Assembly (NCBI GenBank): GCA_012840125.1
Contig: DULZ01000001.1
Location: forward strand, 1-38,357
DNA length: 38,357 nt
Direction of reading: 5' to 3'
Source of the DNA: Clostridia bacterium
GTDB lineage: Bacteria; Bacillota; DULZ01
The notes under the pieces are model-generated. The model searched no databases, had not been told where the DNA came from, and saw only the letters and a list, made by a program, of their open reading frames with translations. The position numbers were made by a program, and so were the translations under genes. This document shows, piece after piece, positions 11,711-28,433 of this stretch. Position 1 is the first letter of the stretch; every line of letters begins with the position of its first letter.

Positions 11711-11775
11711 CTGATGATAGGTTGTCTGACAATGCGCTCGTGGTAAACAAGAAACCCAGGGGGAGGGAGAGTGCC

Positions 11776-14454
11776 ATGGTTAATTTGACCATCGACGGGC
11801 ATCCTGTGTCAGTTCCCGAAGGTACGACCGTGCTGGAGGCGGCCCGGGAAATCGGCATTGATATACCGAACCTGTGCTATGACAAGCATCTTACCCCAGC
11901 AGGTGCCTGCCGGATGTGTGTTGTTTCCATTGAGGGGTTTCGCAACCTGGCCACGGCCTGTACGACGGTAGTGTCCGAAGGCATGGTGGTGCAAACCGAG
12001 ACCCCGGAAGTCGTTGAAGCCAGGAAGATGATTCTCGATTTAATCCTGGCTAATCACCCGCAGGATTGTCTGACTTGTGAAAAAACAGGGAATTGCCAGT
12101 TACAAGACTTGTGTTATCGCTACGGTGTGAAAACCACCACCTTTGCCGGTGAGCGCCGGAATGTGCCGAAAGACACCGGCAATCACCTCATCGAACGGGA
12201 TTACAATAAATGTATCCTCTGCGGTAAATGTGTCCGGGTCTGCGCCGAAGTCCAAGGCACCAATGCCGTGGATTTCGTGGGCCGGGGTTTCCAGACCGTG
12301 GTGGATACCGCTTTCCGGGAGCATCTCAACCTGGAGAACTGCCGTTTCTGCGGCCAGTGCGTGGAAATGTGCCCCACCGGAGCTTTGATCAACAAGCAGT
12401 TCAAGGGTACCAGGCCCTGGCAAATCACCAAGAAAGTCAGGACCACTTGTCCTTTCTGCGGCACGGGCTGCAATTTTGATCTGAACGTCAAAGACGGCAA
12501 GATCATCGGCGTCACCACCGGTAACCCGGACGGGGTGGTCAACGGGCGAGCCCTCTGCGTGAAAGGGCGCTTCCACACCGACATGATCTACAGCCCGGAA
12601 AGGATTACCACGCCTTTAATCAAGAAAAACGGGGAATTCGTCCCGGCCACCTGGGATGAAGCTTTGGATCTGGTCGCTTCCAAGTTCAAGGAGATCAAGG
12701 AGCAGTACGGCAGCGATGCCATCGCGGCTTTGAGTTCCGCGCGCTGCACCAATGAAGACAACTATGTCATGCAGAAATTCGTGCGGGCGGTGATCGGCAC
12801 CAACAACGTCGACCACTGCGCCCGGACGTGACACGCGCCTACCGTAGCCGGTCTGGCTACTGTATTTGGCAGCGGTGCAATGACCAACTCTATTGGTGAA
12901 ATTGAGTTTAACGATTGCCTTTTCGTCATCGGTTCCAACGCCCCTGAAGCCCATCCGGTGATCGGGAGCAAGATGAAGAGAGCCAAGAGAAGGGGAGCCA
13001 AGCTCATCGTCGCCGATCCCAGGAAGACGGAACTGGCGGAAATGGCCGACGTATGGCTGCGGCTGATTCCCGGTACCGATGCGGCTTTGATCAACGGGAT
13101 GATTCACATTATCATCACCGAGGGCTGGGAAGACCGGGAGTTCATTGAAACCCGGTGCGAGGGCTTTGATGACATGTGGAAAGTAGTGCAAAACTACCCG
13201 CCCAGCCGGGCCGCCGAGATCACCGGTGTTCCCGAAGAACTGATCTACCGGGCGGCGGAGCTTTACGCCAAGACCAAGCATGCCGGTATTTACTACACTT
13301 TAGGTATCACCGAGCATACCACCGGTACCGCCAACGTGATGAACCTGGCCAACCTGGCCATGGTCACCGGCCATGTGGGCCTCGAAAGGGCCGGGGTCAA
13401 CCCGTTGAGAGGCCAGAACAACGTACAAGGGGCCTGCGACATGGGTGCCCTGCCCAACGTTTTCCCAGGCTACCAAGCCGTCAGCAACCCGCAGGTGATT
13501 GAGAAATTCGAGAAAGCCTGGGGTGTAACCCTGAACCGGCAAATGGGTCTCCGCATTCCGGAGATGATTGATATGGCGTTGTACGGCCAGGTGAAAGCCA
13601 TGTACATCATGGGTGAAGACCCGGTTCTCACGGACCCTGACGCCAACCATGTCCGGAAAGCCTTGGAGAAGCTGGATTTCATGGTGGTGCAGGATCTGTT
13701 CCTCACCGAGACGGCCAAGTATGCCGATGTATTCCTCCCGGCGGCCTGTTATGCCGAGAAGGAAGGCACTTTTACCAACACGGAGCGCCGGGTGCAGAGA
13801 GTGAGAAAAGCCGTGGAACCCCCCGGCCAGTGCCGCCAGGATTGGGAGATCATCTGCGACCTGTCCCGCCGCATGGGTTATGACATGGACTACTGCTGCA
13901 GTGAGCAGATTTTCAATGAAATGAGGAGCTTAACACCGAGTTATGCCGGCATCACCTACGCCAGGATTGACAAGGTGGGCATCCAGTGGCCCTGCCCGTC
14001 GGAAGACCATCCCGGCACCAAGTTCCTGCACCAGGGCACTTTCCCCAGAGGAAAAGGTCTCCTGCAGGGCATAGAGTATGAAGCACCGGCGGAATTGACC
14101 AATGAAGAATACCCGATGCTCATGACCACCGGCCGGATGCTGTATCACTATAACGTGACCACCAGGCGTTCCGCCAACCTGGACCGGCTGCGTCCCCATG
14201 AGCTGGCCCAGTTGAATCCGGTGGATGCGGCGAAAATCGGCGTGCAAGAGGGAGATGAGATCCGCGTCAGTTCCCGCCGCGGTTCCATCACCACCAAAGT
14301 CACTCTTACGGAAAAAGTACCGCCCGGCATTATGTTCATGACGTTCCACTACTGGGAGTCCCCGGTCAATGAGTTGACCAACTCCGCTTATGACCCGATT
14401 AGTAAGACGGCGGAGTACAAGGTGTCGGCGGTGCGCATCGAGAAAGTGTCATAA
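11776..14454 (+). CDS. fdhA: Formate dehydrogenase catalytic subunit, selenocysteine-containing
   Basis: One 892-residue protein read through an in-frame TGA (12829-12831) as selenocysteine at residue 352, in the context HCART-Sec-HAPTV typical of formate dehydrogenases. The N-terminal part is NuoG/HydA-like: [2Fe-2S] Cys34/45/48/62, a His94/Cys98/101/107 cluster and two ferredoxin-type clusters (146-156 and 189-199). The Mo/W-bis-pyranopterin domain follows with its own cluster at Cys225/228/232/261 and a C-terminal dinucleotide-binding domain. It interconverts formate and CO2; with this architecture it is a soluble NAD(P)- or ferredoxin-linked type like the Moorella enzyme. No diaphorase partner gene lies alongside. 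ATG 11776 has GGGAGGGAG upstream; the frame is open earlier but without support. Confidence 0.93.
12829..12862 (+). promoter_or_regulatory. Bacterial SECIS element of the formate dehydrogenase gene
   Basis: Directly after the TGA, GTAGCC (12844-12849) and GGCTAC (12855-12860) form a perfect six-base stem around the loop GGTCT. The GGUCU apical loop and its distance from the UGA closely match the E. coli fdhF element recognised by SelB. Confidence 0.85.
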
Positions 14455-15695: not shown

Positions 15696-16229
15696 ATGGA
15701 ACTGAAAGGCAGCAAAACGGAAGCTAATTTGTGGGAAGCTTTTGCCGGAGAGTCCAAGGCAAGGAACAAGTATACTTATTATGCTTCTGTAGCCAAGAAA
15801 GAAGGTTATGAACAAATCGCTGCGATTTTTGAAGAAACCGCCAACCATGAAAAGGAACACGCGAAGAGAGCGTTCAAGTTCTTAGGCGGTATTGGCGATA
15901 CGGTGGCCAACCTGAAGGATGCCGCCGCCGGTGAGCATTACGAATGGGCGGAAATGTACAAGAAGTTTGCCGAAGAGGCCCGGGAAGAAGGTTTCACGGA
16001 AATTGCCGCTTTCTTTGAAAAAGTAGCCACCGTCGAGGCAGAGCACGAAAAACGTTACTTAAAGCTGCTGCAGAATATTGAAGAAGGCAAAGTATTCAAG
16101 AAAGATGCGGAACAGCGCTGGATGTGCCGCAACTGCGGTTATGTCCATACGGGCGCCGAAGCTCCCGAGCTTTGCCCGGCTTGCGCTCATCCCAGGGCTT
16201 ACTTCCAACTGAAAGCAGAGAACTACTAG
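15696..16229 (+). CDS. rbr: Rubrerythrin
   Basis: A 177-residue rubrerythrin: an N-terminal four-helix diiron domain with the ligand set ESKARNKY and EETANHEKEHA, repeated in the second half as EKVATVEAEHEKRY, then a rubredoxin-like iron centre CRNCG and CPACAHP. It reduces hydrogen peroxide in anaerobes, drawing electrons from rubredoxin or NADH-linked donors. TAAGGAGG lies eight bases before the ATG. It is monocistronic, with a strong terminator directly after the stop. AT-rich sequence upstream could hold a peroxide-responsive operator, but I could not define one. Confidence 0.95.
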   Translation: MELKGSKTEANLWEAFAGESKARNKYTYYASVAKKEGYEQIAAIFEETANHEKEHAKRAFKFLGGIGDTVANLKDAAAGEHYEWAEMYKKFAEEAREEGFTEIAAFFEKVATVEAEHEKRYLKLLQNIEEGKVFKKDAEQRWMCRNCGYVHTGAEAPELCPACAHPRAYFQLKAENY

Positions 16230-16233
16230 TGGT

Positions 16234-16261
16234 AAAAACCTCGCTCCATGGCGAGGTTTTT
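16234..16261 (+). terminator. Rho-independent terminator of rubrerythrin
   Basis: AAAAACCTCGC (16234-16244) pairs perfectly with GCGAGGTTTTT (16251-16261); a T-rich stretch follows. Confidence 0.9.
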
Positions 16262-16280
16262 AATTTTTTGTAGGGACGGC

Positions 16281-16310
16281 TTTACAGGAAAATGGTTAAT
16301 ATGATATAAT
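16281..16310 (+). promoter_or_regulatory. Sigma-A promoter of the riboswitch-aminomutase transcript
   Basis: TTTACA (16281-16286), an 18-base spacer and a perfect TATAAT (16305-16310) with an extended -10 TG at 16302-16303. It lies just upstream of the riboswitch aptamer. Confidence 0.75.
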
Positions 16311-16327
16311 AACTTACCAAAACAAAA

Positions 16328-16464
16328 TACCTGCGGAGCGCTGAATTCTCACCGGCGTGAGAAGCGGAGGACCCACTTTTTGGGGTGAATCTCTCAGTTG
16401 CTGAGAGTAGGGTTAGCTTTCGACCCGAACCCGTCAGCTAACTTCGTAAGCGTGGAAAGTAGGA
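16328..16464 (+). ncRNA. Cyclic di-AMP riboswitch (ydaO/yuaA class) aptamer
   Basis: Conserved ydaO-class blocks occur in order: CGCTGAATTCTCACC, GGAGGACCCAC then TTTTTGGGGTGAATC, a hairpin CTCTCAGTTGCTGAGAG, GGGTTAGCTTTCGACCCG and AACCCGTCAGCTAACTTCGT. This class binds c-di-AMP and usually turns genes off. The 3' edge GGAAAGTAGG (16454-16463) is exactly complementary to CCTACTTTCC (16502-16511), the 5' arm and loop of the terminator. Without ligand this antiterminator can form; ligand binding would hold the 3' edge in the aptamer and let termination occur. The recognition rests on remembered consensus rather than a covariance search. Confidence 0.88.
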
Positions 16465-16499
16465 GCTTTAACCCGTGTGATTAAAGTTTGCTTTTTTAT

Positions 16500-16526
16500 G
16501 CCCTACTTTCCGTAGGGCATTTTTTT
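16500..16526 (+). terminator. Riboswitch-controlled terminator
   Basis: GCCCTAC (16500-16506) pairs with GTAGGGC (16512-16518) around TTTCC, followed by A and seven T. It lies between the aptamer and the aminomutase start, and its 5' arm can instead pair with 16454-16463. Confidence 0.88.
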
Positions 16527-16597
16527 CCTGCCGATTACTGCATCATTGAGCGGGGAGGTAATGGAAGGAAACCAATTTGCAAGGGAGGTTGATGCGC

Positions 16598-17908
16598 ATG
16601 GCAACAAGAGAGCTGACCCCGGAGCTGCTGTTAGACGGACATCACCGTGCTAAGTTGAAAAAAGCCCAACTGACTCCCGAGGAAAAAAGACGGATCTCGA
16701 ATATGAGGGCCCTGGAACTGAAAAGCAGGATTCAGGATTACCTGGAGGCTCGGCAGCACATTCCCTCCGGCAGGGAAATGGAAGACCGGATCCGGGAAAG
16801 GAGAGCAAAGATCCTCAAGCTGCTGAACGGGACGGAAGCCGACTGGCAAGACTGGAAATGGCAAATGGCCCACCGCATCAGTGACGTGGACATTCTCAAA
16901 GAAATTCTGGAATTAAGCGAAAAAGAAGTGCAGGAAATCAAAGAAGTCGGCTTAAAATTCCGCTGGGCTATTTCCCCTTACTACCTGAGTCTGATTGATC
17001 CGGCAAATGCGAAAGATCCCGTGCGCCTGCAGTCCATCCCCCAATGGGCGGAAATGGCGCCGGGCTGCGGCGAAGCGGATCCCATGGGTGAGGAGTTTAC
17101 CAATCCTGCCCCCAGGATTACCAGGCGTTATCCCGACCGGTTGATTATTAACGTGACCAATGTCTGCGCCATGTACTGCCGCCACTGCCAGCGGCGGAGA
17201 AATATCGGGGAAACGGACCGGCACAGCACCATGGAGGAATTAAAAGGGGCTTTGGATTATGTCCGCCAGCACCCGGAAATCCGGGACGTTTTGATCACCG
17301 GCGGCGACGCCCTCATGCTCTCCGATGAGCGGCTGGATTGGCTGTTGACGGAGCTGGACAACATTCCTCATGTGGAGATCAAGCGGATCGGTACCAGAAC
17401 CCTGGTGACTTTGCCGCAACGCATCACCCCGGAATTATGTGCGGTACTGGAAAAGCACCCGCCCCTTTATCTCAACACCCAGTTTAACCACCCGCAGGAG
17501 GTTACCAGTGAAGCCGTGCAAGCCGCCGACCGGCTGGTGCGGGCCGGTGTGGTACTGGGCAACCAGGCCGTTTTGCTGCGCCATGTCAATAACGACAAGC
17601 ATGTCATGAAGAAGCTCAACCATGAGCTGTTGAAAGCCAGGATCCGGCCCTATTATATTTTCCATGCCAAAGAAGTCATCGGTACCGGCCACTTCATCAC
17701 CTCGGTGGACGAAGGCTTGGAGATCATGGAGCACCTGCGCGGTTATACCTCCGGTTTGGCCGTGCCCACTTATATCATTAACGCCCCGGACGGTTACGGC
17801 AAGACACCCATGCTGCCTGAATACCTGGTTTCCGCGGGTAAAGACAAGATCTATATCCGCACCTGGGAAAAGCGGATTTTCGAATATCCCAATGTGCGGT
17901 CTAGATAA
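16598..17908 (+). CDS. eam: Radical SAM aminomutase of the KamA family, probable glutamate 2,3-aminomutase
   Basis: A 436-residue PLP-dependent radical SAM aminomutase. The cluster motif CxxxCxxC is Cys190/194/197 (CAMYCRHC), and the PLP lysine corresponds to Lys402 in NAPDGYGK. Lysine 2,3-aminomutases bind the substrate ammonium group with two aspartates (293 and 330 in the Clostridium enzyme); here these positions are Lys358 (FHAK) and Asn395 (IINAP), 37 residues apart as in the family. The same Lys/Asn pair defines characterised glutamate 2,3-aminomutase. Product: beta-glutamate, a compatible solute. The start at ATG 16598 is nine bases after AGGGAGG; ATG 16592 is too close. No acetyltransferase gene (ablB) follows. 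The upstream c-di-AMP riboswitch implies osmotic control. Confidence 0.85.
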   Translation: MATRELTPELLLDGHHRAKLKKAQLTPEEKRRISNMRALELKSRIQDYLEARQHIPSGREMEDRIRERRAKILKLLNGTEADWQDWKWQMAHRISDVDILKEILELSEKEVQEIKEVGLKFRWAISPYYLSLIDPANAKDPVRLQSIPQWAEMAPGCGEADPMGEEFTNPAPRITRRYPDRLIINVTNVCAMYCRHCQRRRNIGETDRHSTMEELKGALDYVRQHPEIRDVLITGGDALMLSDERLDWLLTELDNIPHVEIKRIGTRTLVTLPQRITPELCAVLEKHPPLYLNTQFNHPQEVTSEAVQAADRLVRAGVVLGNQAVLLRHVNNDKHVMKKLNHELLKARIRPYYIFHAKEVIGTGHFITSVDEGLEIMEHLRGYTSGLAVPTYIINAPDGYGKTPMLPEYLVSAGKDKIYIRTWEKRIFEYPNVRSR

Positions 17909-18245: not shown

Positions 18246-19331
18246 TTAGCATTTAATGGCTGCCCCATCCTTTGCGTAGATGGCAGGAAAATACCGGCGG
18301 TATAAAGGGAGGTTTAAGTTTTCTTCCCTGAAACGGCGGGCCCGGGCCGCGCGCAGCTGAATAAGATCCAAATCCCCGACGACCAGGTCTTCCTGATCCG
18401 GGCTTTGCGCCAAAGCCACCAGCCCGTCAGGCGGCTGGATTTCCAGGGGGGCGAAGATCCCGGCTTTGCCGGTAAAATTCAAGCCAAAGAAACCTTTTCC
18501 CACTAAAGCGCTTTTGATACCGTACACACAGCTTTCCTGCACCCGGGGCCAGATGCCCCGTAAGGCCTTCCACAGGTTGTATTCCTCCGGGTTGGCAATG
18601 GGAATGATCACGATCTCGGCCCCCAGCAGGGATAAAATCCGGAAAGTCTCAAAATAGGTGGCATCCATGCAGACGGGGAAAGCAATTTTACCCAGTGCCG
18701 TGTCAAAGATCTCCAGCCGGTTCCCCCGGCAGATGCCCCACTGGGCTTCCAGGGGCAAGAGATGGGCTTTGTTTTGGGAGCCCACCAGCCTGCCTTGGGG
18801 GTCAAACAGGGAAGCTTGGTTGACCACTTTTCCTGCGTCATCCGGCACCAACCGGCTGCCTCCCATGATGTAGATCCCAAAGGCCCCGGCCAGGCTGCTC
18901 ATGGTGGCCCGGTACAAGCCCTCTACCCCAGCCCCGAAGGCCCCGAATAGACCGGCGAAGCTTACGGGCAAAGCCGCTGCGCCGGGAGAGCCGTTTCCCT
19001 GCAGCAGGTCGAGCCGGGCCAGTTGCTTGACGCCGGGCACCAGCCCCAAGAGATGCAGGGTGATATGCTCGGGGAAAACAATTAACTGGGCCCCCGCCTC
19101 GACCCCTTTGACCACCTGGCGGTAGATCAGCTCCACCCATTCCAGCGGGTCTTCTACCAGGTACAGGGGCACTTGGGCTGCCGCCACCCGTATCCGGCCC
19201 GGTTTTATACCTTGTCCCCGGGTGCCGGGTTTGATGTTTTTTCCATGCAGAAACCGCCTGACCAGCCGGGGCCGGGTGCGAAAGGACAGGTATGGAGTCA
19301 GGATCTTGTTGACCACGCCATCAAGAAGCAT
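18246..19331 (-). CDS. Carbon-nitrogen hydrolase (nitrilase superfamily), intact triad
   Basis: About 361 residues with the nitrilase-fold catalytic triad in place: Glu88 in FPEHI, Lys188 in QNKAHL and Cys221 in FPVCMDATYFE, followed by the NPEEYN strand. The superfamily hydrolyses amides, nitriles or carbamoyl groups; the substrate cannot be told. An N-terminal extension of about 45 residues, Arg-rich, precedes the usual first strand (RIRVAAAQV). ATG at 19331 is preferred because AAAGGGG is well spaced from it; GTG at 19340 is the alternative. It overlaps the end of its paralogue by 11 bases, so the two are co-translated. The pair is divergent from the LysR gene. Confidence 0.85.
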   Translation of the reverse strand: MLLDGVVNKILTPYLSFRTRPRLVRRFLHGKNIKPGTRGQGIKPGRIRVAAAQVPLYLVEDPLEWVELIYRQVVKGVEAGAQLIVFPEHITLHLLGLVPGVKQLARLDLLQGNGSPGAAALPVSFAGLFGAFGAGVEGLYRATMSSLAGAFGIYIMGGSRLVPDDAGKVVNQASLFDPQGRLVGSQNKAHLLPLEAQWGICRGNRLEIFDTALGKIAFPVCMDATYFETFRILSLLGAEIVIIPIANPEEYNLWKALRGIWPRVQESCVYGIKSALVGKGFFGLNFTGKAGIFAPLEIQPPDGLVALAQSPDQEDLVVGDLDLIQLRAARARRFREENLNLPLYRRYFPAIYAKDGAAIKC

Positions 19332-20190
19332 CGTCCCCACCCCTTTCGTAGATCCCCGGCAGGTGAGCTTGATACAAAGCCGGGTTGAGATGTTTTAAGA
19401 GGGGATAAGCAGCGATCACTTGCCGCCGCCTGTCAAAGTCCAAGAGGGCCCAGGCAGTCTTTCTTTCGTTGGCCAGGTAGCCTGTTTCCTGCGGGGTCAT
19501 TTCACAAGGCGCCAGGATGGGGGCAAAACCGTCGAAGGCGACGGTACCGACGGTGCCTTGCAGCCAGTTTTCCAGGGCAAAGAACTGGTTTTGCTGCACC
19601 TCCTGCCACATGGCGGCCACCTGCCGCCACCGGTTATAAGGGGCCGGCACGGCGGCGGGGGCAAGTACCAGCTCGGCCCCTTGCAGGGCCAGGATCCGGC
19701 TCACCTCGGGATGCCAGATGTCAGTGCCCACTACCAGGCCAAGCCGGCCGAAAGAGGTGGACCAGACCTGGAGTTCCTCTCCCCTGGCCAATCCCCAGGC
19801 CTGTTCTTCTCCGGACAGGTGGGTCTGGCATTGCTGCCCGATTTTATTCCCCTGGGGGTCAAACAGGGCGGCGGCCAAATAGTACCGGTCCTGTACCTTG
19901 ACCGAGGTGCTGCCCGGGCAGAGATACAGCTGCCACTTACGGGCCAAGCGGCGAAACCCTTCTTCGAAAGAGGGGGCCTGTTCCGCCGCCCTGGGCACCA
20001 GTTCGGCGGGTTCCGCCCGGCGGCCCAGCACCGCCTGGTAGTAGATCCAGCCGGTCAACCCGGGGAACAGGACCAGTTGGGTTCCATGTTCCTTCACCTG
20101 CTGCAGCGTGGAGTTGACTTGGGACCAGAATTCCTCGGGCCCATGGAATCGGGCTCCCGCCAAAACAGCGTTTGCGGCGACAATTTTCAT
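19321..20190 (-). CDS. Nitrilase-fold protein lacking all three catalytic residues
   Basis: About 289 residues, homologous to the downstream gene and to the nitrilase superfamily throughout (MKIVAANAVLAG, GTQLVLFPG, GAELVLAPAAVPAPYNRW). The triad is gone: Glu becomes Gly44 (FPGLTG), Lys becomes Gln122 (QQCQTHL) and Cys becomes Gly155 (LVVGTDIW). The fold is otherwise full-length with an open frame, so it looks like a retained pseudoenzyme, not a decaying gene. It may serve as a structural or regulatory partner of the active paralogue with which it overlaps. ATG 20190 has GGGAGG upstream; an upstream in-frame start at 20223 lacks comparable support. Confidence 0.8.
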   Translation of the reverse strand: MKIVAANAVLAGARFHGPEEFWSQVNSTLQQVKEHGTQLVLFPGLTGWIYYQAVLGRRAEPAELVPRAAEQAPSFEEGFRRLARKWQLYLCPGSTSVKVQDRYYLAAALFDPQGNKIGQQCQTHLSGEEQAWGLARGEELQVWSTSFGRLGLVVGTDIWHPEVSRILALQGAELVLAPAAVPAPYNRWRQVAAMWQEVQQNQFFALENWLQGTVGTVAFDGFAPILAPCEMTPQETGYLANERKTAWALLDFDRRRQVIAAYPLLKHLNPALYQAHLPGIYERGGDDAS

Positions 20191-20235
20191 CCCTTTTTCC
20201 TCCCGCCCAGGTCTTTTTCCCATTTTAGACTAAAG

Positions 20236-27389: not shown

Positions 27390-28433
27390 ATGGCGGACAT
27401 ACGTTTAACACAATGCGCCAAGGCCTCCGGGTGAGCGGCAAAGGTAGGTCCGGGGACCTTAAGAGACGTACTTGGCACCATCACCACTGTGGAAGACCCG
27501 CGCCTTTTGGTCAGCGGGGCCACGATGGATGATGCCGGTGTCTACCGGCTCACCGATGAACTGGCCCTGGTGCAGACCGTGGACTTCTTCACGCCCATGG
27601 TGGATGACCCGTATTTGTTCGGGCAGATCGCGGCGGCGAACGCCTTAAGCGATGTTTATGCCATGGGGGGTAAGCCCCTTACCGCAATGAACATCGCCGC
27701 TTTTCCGGTGAGCACCATGGACCTGGGCATATTGAGGGATATTTTCCGGGGAGGTGCCGACAAGCTTAAAGAAGCAAAGACGCTGCTGGTGGGAGGCCAT
27801 ACCATTGAGGACCAGGAACCGAAATACGGTTTATCGGTGACGGGGATTGTACATCCCGAGAAGATATGGACCAACCGGGGCGGGAAACCGGGGGACAGCC
27901 TGGTTTTGACCAAACCCCTGGGGACCGGGATCATCAGCACGGCCATCAAAGGGGAAATGGCCGGCCGGGAGTCCGTGGAAGAAGCCGTACGCTTCATGAC
28001 CACCTTGAATAATGCGGCAGCGGAAGCAGCCGCCCAAGTCGGGGTCCATGCCTGTACCGATGTGACCGGCTTCGGCCTTTTGGGGCATCTCTATGAGATG
28101 ATGACGCCGGAAATAGGTTTTGAAATCATCTGGCCGCAAGTGCCGCTGATGGCGGGAACCAAAGACTACGCTTCCTGGGGACTGGTGCCCGGGGGTGCAC
28201 GTCGCAATCTCAAGTACCTGCACGACGCCGTCGAACGGGAAAAAGGCATCTCCGACATTGCCATGGATATCCTGGCGGATCCCCAAACTTCAGGGGGATT
28301 ACTGTTGGCGGTATCATCGGAGAAAGCACAAGCATTAGTAGCCGCCTTGCATGAACGAGGTGTCGCGGCGGCACAAGTGATTGGATATGTGACGGACAAG
28401 CATCCGGGCAAAATTCTAGTGAGAGGGTGGTAG
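27390..28433 (+). CDS. selD: Selenide, water dikinase, selenocysteine-containing
   Basis: A 347-residue SelD in which codon 15 is TGA (27432-27434), in the context KASG-Sec-AAKVG, the site of the catalytic Cys/Sec. The frame is continuous before and after it. Later motifs: VQTVDFFTPMVDDPYLFGQI, DVYAMGGKPLTAMNIAAFP and DVTGFGLLGHL; it makes selenophosphate from selenide and ATP for selenocysteine synthesis. AAAGGAGAG precedes the ATG by eight bases. yedF starts four bases after the stop, making a selenium operon. selA, selB and tRNA-Sec are not in this window. Confidence 0.93.
27435..27465 (+). promoter_or_regulatory. Bacterial SECIS-like hairpin of selD
   Basis: Starting 11 bases after the TGA, AGGTC (27446-27450) and GACCT (27455-27459) form a perfect stem around CGGG. 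Position and size fit a bacterial SECIS; the loop differs from that of the formate dehydrogenase element. Confidence 0.6.

Follow-up and report, generated by a model that had tools for sequence, protein, structure and literature searches.

The window, a stretch of 38,357 nucleotides of clostridial DNA analysed as a whole, carries a gene for a predicted glutamate 2,3-aminomutase (EAM), preceded by a c-di-AMP riboswitch aptamer and an intrinsic terminator (Table 1). The aptamer is the sole Rfam match above threshold across the window. Since a terminator-like hairpin closes the upstream rubrerythrin gene, the EAM unit is considered separate from it, and EAM is transcribed alone, with no adjoining gene that uses beta-glutamate. 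While the ORF finder starts the reading frame at TTG 16577, the 436-residue protein beginning at ATG 16598 is favoured, because a Shine-Dalgarno sequence is located 8 nt upstream.

Other parts of the window also contain genes with distinctive features. A molybdopterin oxidoreductase of the formate-dehydrogenase type (11722-14454, plus strand) is broken into two ORFs by an in-frame TGA (12829-12831), which can be read as selenocysteine (CART-U-HAPTVAGLA). A SECIS_3 match at 12826-12884 is sub-threshold (35.5 bits, cut-off 63, E 1e-6), and judging from the sequence the region very probably encodes one selenoprotein rather than two genes. A possible selD lies at 27489-28433, where a gene of the AIR-synthase family precedes one with a TusA domain. 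Two adjoining carbon-nitrogen hydrolase (nitrilase-superfamily) genes on the minus strand (18246-20223) overlap by about 20 nt.

Table 1. Features of the EAM unit and its upstream border
Feature	Position	Strand	Remarks
Rubrerythrin gene	15696-16229		Upstream of the EAM unit; Pfam
Terminator-like hairpin ending the rubrerythrin gene	16233-16262	+	Sequence scan
Predicted sigma-70-like promoter, TTTACA-18-TATAAT	16281-16310	+	TG before -10; consensus match only, 11/12
c-di-AMP (ydaO/yuaA) riboswitch aptamer	16329-16467	+	RF00379
Aptamer pseudoknot, 5' strand CUUUC	16417-16421	+	Pairs with 16455-16459
Antiterminator, 5' strand GGAAAGTAGG	16454-16463	+	Exact complement of 16502-16511
Aptamer pseudoknot, 3' strand GAAAG	16455-16459	+	Inside antiterminator 5' strand 16454-16463
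Intrinsic terminator ATGCCCTAC-TTTCC-GTAGGGCAT-TTTTTT	16498-16526	+	9-bp stem, 5-nt loop, T run
Antiterminator, 3' strand CCTACTTTCC	16502-16511	+	Overlaps terminator 5' arm
Shine-Dalgarno sequence GGGAGGT	16583-16589	+	8 nt ahead of ATG 16598
EAM gene, 436 aa	16598-17908	+	TIGR04368; radical SAM CAMYCRHC; PLP-type GYGKTP
Lys358 codon	17669-17671	+	Asp in lysine 2,3-aminomutase
Asn395 codon	17780-17782	+	Asp in lysine 2,3-aminomutase

The aminomutase and its riboswitch

The protein passes the NCBIfam cut-off of the EAM equivalog TIGR04368 (716.6 bits, cut-off 650), but fails that of the lysine 2,3-aminomutase equivalog TIGR03820 (460.1 versus 525.4) and remains below the arginine and EpmB equivalog cut-offs too. 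Its homology to the solved lysine 2,3-aminomutase 2a5h is clear over 353 residues, and the radical SAM cysteines as well as the PLP-type GxGKTP motif are kept. In lysine 2,3-aminomutase, two aspartates hold the side-chain amine of the substrate. Lys358 and Asn395, counted from ATG 16598 and spaced by 37 residues, align with these two aspartates of 2a5h, and the Lys/Asn pair, the established mark of glutamate 2,3-aminomutase, is constant in 142/142 EAM homologues. The glutamate 2,3-aminomutase of Clostridioides difficile, as reported by Ruzicka and Frey, resembles the window enzyme in family and in this pair. The preliminary description had named the same two residues, with their spacing, and had proposed a glutamate-type enzyme; the alignment and the equivalog scores agree with it on both counts. 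The genome of origin harbours no second KamA-family match and no ablB (beta-lysine acetyltransferase) above cut-off, which speaks against a beta-lysine pathway there, and it encodes one diadenylate cyclase domain.

Upstream of the gene, a ydaO-class aptamer had been proposed, to be checked with a covariance model, and this search returned a full-length match to RF00379 (model positions 1-134; 101.8 bits, E 2.8e-23, threshold 38). The purpose-built model R1 scored the aptamer at 117.2 bits, and it is the only RF00379 match in its 97%-complete genome. The loop-to-3'-tail pseudoknot that belongs to this class is formed in the window by the strands CUUUC and GAAAG.

The downstream terminator is strong, with a 28-nt core that folds at -13.0 kcal/mol (z -5.8), and the perfect 10-bp complement between the aptamer tail and the terminator region was verified as an exact match. 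By chance, a perfect match of at least 10 nt is unlikely, not impossible (4/2000 shuffles of the downstream 60 nt), and coincidence becomes less likely because the complement overlaps both the terminator arm and the pseudoknot strand. Nucleotides common to the antiterminator and each of these elements make the expression platform and the ligand-bound aptamer mutually exclusive. As the 5' strand of the antiterminator is the 3' strand of the pseudoknot too, a clear OFF-switch mechanism is predicted. The minimum-energy fold of an RNA ending at 16511 contains the antiterminator, and the full leader folds at -66.9 kcal/mol with the terminator and at -64.2 kcal/mol with the antiterminator, the pseudoknot not being counted. 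Mutually exclusive helices and folds thus support the earlier reading of the leader as a terminator/antiterminator switch.

c-di-AMP sensors at EAM genes of the phylum

Among 399 genomes of the phylum, EAM exceeded the cut-off in 136, and 142 EAM loci were scanned using a model derived from 25 aptamers. An aptamer is found directly upstream and on the same strand in 73/142 EAM genes (51%), distributed over 73 genomes, with a median distance of 107 nt to the start codon. The 69 remaining genes are devoid of the riboswitch, and hence c-di-AMP control is not a universal feature of EAM. Riboswitch bearers include Moorella thermoacetica, M. mulderi, M. stamsii and M. sulfitireducens, as well as Desulforamulus putei and D. 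aquiferis. In 12 genomes (families f1, f5, f14, f16, f29, f33, f44 and f48) the EAM aptamer is the sole RF00379 match listed by a survey with strict filters, in which weak matches may be missing. The EAM tree places most riboswitch bearers in one half and requires at least 10 changes of state; the window EAM sits in the other, mostly riboswitch-free half, with five bearers. No conserved partner gene was found downstream of EAM, where the neighbours vary by lineage, and no conserved biosynthetic partner near riboswitch-bearing EAM genes. Just 3' of EAM, 20 riboswitch-free loci (e.g., L068, L069, L110 and L204) carry a dprA/smf-like gene, a conserved gene order without an obvious osmotic meaning.

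The pseudoknot extends to the relatives: the complementarity of loop and tail in 69 EAM leaders is 12.35, compared to 10.89 with the tails of other leaders, and was reached by 0/20000 reshufflings, a figure that is inflated by common ancestry, since relatedness was not controlled. Two adjoining weak aptamer matches ahead of EAM at two loci (L168, 682-918; L177, 670-882) possibly represent a degenerate or doubled c-di-AMP aptamer.

A terminator-like hairpin is located 3' of the aptamer in 59/73 leaders (16.2 in shuffles), and strong terminator hairpins occur in 44/73 (1.6 in shuffles). The window and genus g49 (L165, L175, L180) show strong simple pairing between tail and terminator arm; in Moorella-type leaders it is weak, and many leaders, including those of Moorella, are without it. 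The 10-bp antiterminator of the window is not conserved as such, and as a universal device a tail-to-terminator antiterminator of this style was not found among EAM leaders. Over 59 leaders, the complementarity of cognate tails and arms is modestly higher than that of reshuffled ones (12.7 versus 11.6). About nine of the 73 leaders, to which a terminating mechanism cannot apply, look translational. In four of them (L113, L116, L117, L186) only 4-8 nt separate the aptamer from the start codon, which places the pseudoknot tail over the ribosome-binding site, and translational control is probable. Another five leaders (L108, L123, L126, L129, L146) contain a CCCTCC-type element that can pair with either the aptamer tail (GGGAGGG) or the ribosome-binding site (GGAGGG). 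Both patterns suggest that translation is controlled and that the logic is again OFF.

A gene for a BusR-like protein (GntR and TrkA_C domains) adjoins 12 EAM genes, while none was seen near EAM in the window. The BusR-like proteins match solved BusR entries nearly full-length (7b5t, E 1e-20). Half of these loci also bear the riboswitch (L067, L112, L113, L116, L117, L140), and six do not (L124, L131, L132, L134, L135, L148). In the EAM tree the six riboswitch-free loci group together (support 90) beside L067, L112 and L140, which have both sensors, and the outgroup L182 is riboswitch-only. The simplest reading of this arrangement suggests a sensor swap, wherein BusR control was gained and the riboswitch then lost. 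As a candidate operator, an inverted repeat AACAACT-N12-15-AGTTGTT spans the EAM promoter with at most 3 mismatches in 11/12 BusR-like loci, a statistic biased by the derivation of the motif from the same sequences. The repeat is not identical to the published BusR site (GAC-type, 22-bp spacing). BusR of Lactococcus and Streptococcus likewise exerts c-di-AMP-dependent repression of compatible-solute accumulation, yet it is a protein sensor and its target is the uptake of glycine betaine (PMC8517857, PMC6108528); repression occurs at high c-di-AMP (PMC8517857).

Related systems, mechanism and meaning

The ydaO/yuaA c-di-AMP riboswitches of Bacillus subtilis precede K+ uptake genes. They share with the window the RF00379 aptamer and an OFF logic in osmotic homeostasis, but act on ion uptake, whereas the target in the window would be solute synthesis. 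In Dehalobacter sp. CF, a Na+/c-di-AMP tandem riboswitch lies upstream of lysine 2,3-aminomutase (ablA); c-di-AMP shuts off transcription of this gene in vitro, and nucleotides of the aptamer P1/pseudoknot form an antiterminator that competes with the terminator arm (PMC9337991). Both systems comprise a c-di-AMP aptamer followed by a terminator, a competition between pseudoknot strand and terminator arm, and as target a radical SAM 2,3-aminomutase making an osmolyte precursor. They differ in that the Dehalobacter target is annotated as a lysine and not a glutamate enzyme, and in that neither the window nor its genome (G000) contains a Na+ aptamer (RF03071), and thus the window riboswitch is not a tandem.

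One EAM locus of the survey does have this architecture (L185; G161:C16:2651-4296), with a Na+ aptamer (RF03071; 43.3 bits, cut-off 40.5), a c-di-AMP aptamer, EAM and a lysine aminomutase in a row. The gene immediately after this Lys/Asn EAM is an Asp/Asp paralogue, and therefore the two enzyme types sort cleanly. In terms of its predicted elements, L185 is an extension of the published Na+/c-di-AMP gate to EAM. The Dehalobacter study also names eam, in one sentence, under Na+-I riboswitches, which resembles the window in placing a beta-glutamate enzyme under a riboswitch in an osmotic context, but with a different ligand; c-di-AMP control of eam is not stated in its main text (PMC9337991). 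A literature text search for c-di-AMP and aminomutase yielded no other relevant paper, and the target list of Nelson 2013 may already include eam.

Most probably, EAM forms a transcription unit of its own under a c-di-AMP OFF riboswitch, and beta-glutamate is made as a compatible solute. The sequence itself shows the aptamer, the mutually exclusive helices, the enzyme family, one diadenylate cyclase domain in the genome and the repeated occurrence of the arrangement across the phylum; we infer the direction of control, ligand binding, substrate and osmolyte role. Bound c-di-AMP would hold the pseudoknot and bar the tail from 16502-16511, upon which the terminator would form and transcription stop ahead of EAM; a ligand that holds the pseudoknot thus favours termination. 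At high external osmolarity, c-di-AMP is expected to be low, the tail would pair with the terminator 5' arm, and polymerase would read through into EAM. The radical SAM/PLP enzyme would then convert L-glutamate to beta-glutamate, which would accumulate as a compatible solute. The osmotic role is put forward on account of the known chemistry of the family, the use of beta-glutamate as a compatible solute (PMC1224877) and the company EAM keeps. As an osmolyte, beta-glutamate has been reported mainly in methanogens, where NMR evidence excluded an aminomutase route to it, and in few bacteria (PMC1224877).

The riboswitch might operate as described while EAM feeds another pathway that c-di-AMP happens to control (a beta-amino acid for a secondary metabolite, or cell-wall or nitrogen metabolism) and beta-glutamate is no osmolyte, as could be argued from the solitary position of EAM in the window, the lack of c-di-AMP control in about half of all EAM genes and the control of cell-wall genes by c-di-AMP as well. 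This alternative is unlikely, given that no conserved biosynthetic partner accompanies riboswitch-bearing EAM genes, that BusR controls glycine betaine uptake (PMC8517857, PMC6108528) and that EAM and lysine aminomutase under the tandem of L185 fit osmolyte synthesis. Far less probable is a lysine (or other) 2,3-aminomutase, with the switch controlling beta-lysine synthesis as in Dehalobacter: the enzyme belongs to the same superfamily, is homologous to 2a5h over 353 residues, and a lysine enzyme is what c-di-AMP controls in the published case (PMC9337991), yet the protein fails the lysine cut-off (460 versus 525) and passes the glutamate one, Lys and Asn, invariant among 142 homologues, stand in place of both aspartates, the EAM of G161 stands beside an Asp/Asp neighbour, and the window's genome has no beta-lysine acetyltransferase above cut-off.

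Direction is not provable from sequence, and the full-length folds lie within about 3 kcal/mol of each other, which leaves some room for an aptamer that acts as an ON switch with c-di-AMP, or for a constitutive terminator behind a relic aptamer. Against either stand the nucleotides shared by the antiterminator and the ligand-stabilised pseudoknot, which predict OFF, the match to the whole RF00379 model, the OFF behaviour of the Dehalobacter relative in vitro (PMC9337991) and the repression by BusR at high c-di-AMP (PMC8517857); of the readings considered here, we deem this one the least probable.

The preferred reading, a c-di-AMP OFF switch of beta-glutamate synthesis, bears on the tie between the second messenger and a radical SAM osmolyte enzyme drawn in the preliminary description. 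This link is broadly supported (73/142 EAM genes with an aptamer, 12 with a BusR-like gene) but not wholly new (PMC9337991): the mechanism was already known, and the novelty appears to lie in the window member and in how far the EAM regulon extends. As about half of the EAM genes bear the aptamer and a few use a repressor, the c-di-AMP-EAM link looks widespread. More tentatively, many anaerobic Bacillota may have EAM as a core and often the sole riboswitch-controlled target of c-di-AMP, and beta-glutamate as the osmolyte under c-di-AMP control, a control that would persist with interchangeable hardware, namely terminating or translational riboswitches, the Na+/c-di-AMP tandem, or a takeover by BusR after riboswitch loss.

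In about half of the cases sampled, the gene for a likely bacterial beta-glutamate synthase would be wired to an osmotic second messenger, and two unrelated sensors would make the connection. On this view, acetogens, sulfate reducers and syntrophs are predicted to use an osmolyte that is widespread but has been overlooked, and the prediction could be tested in cultured strains, among them Moorella thermoacetica, Moorella mulderi and Desulforamulus putei.
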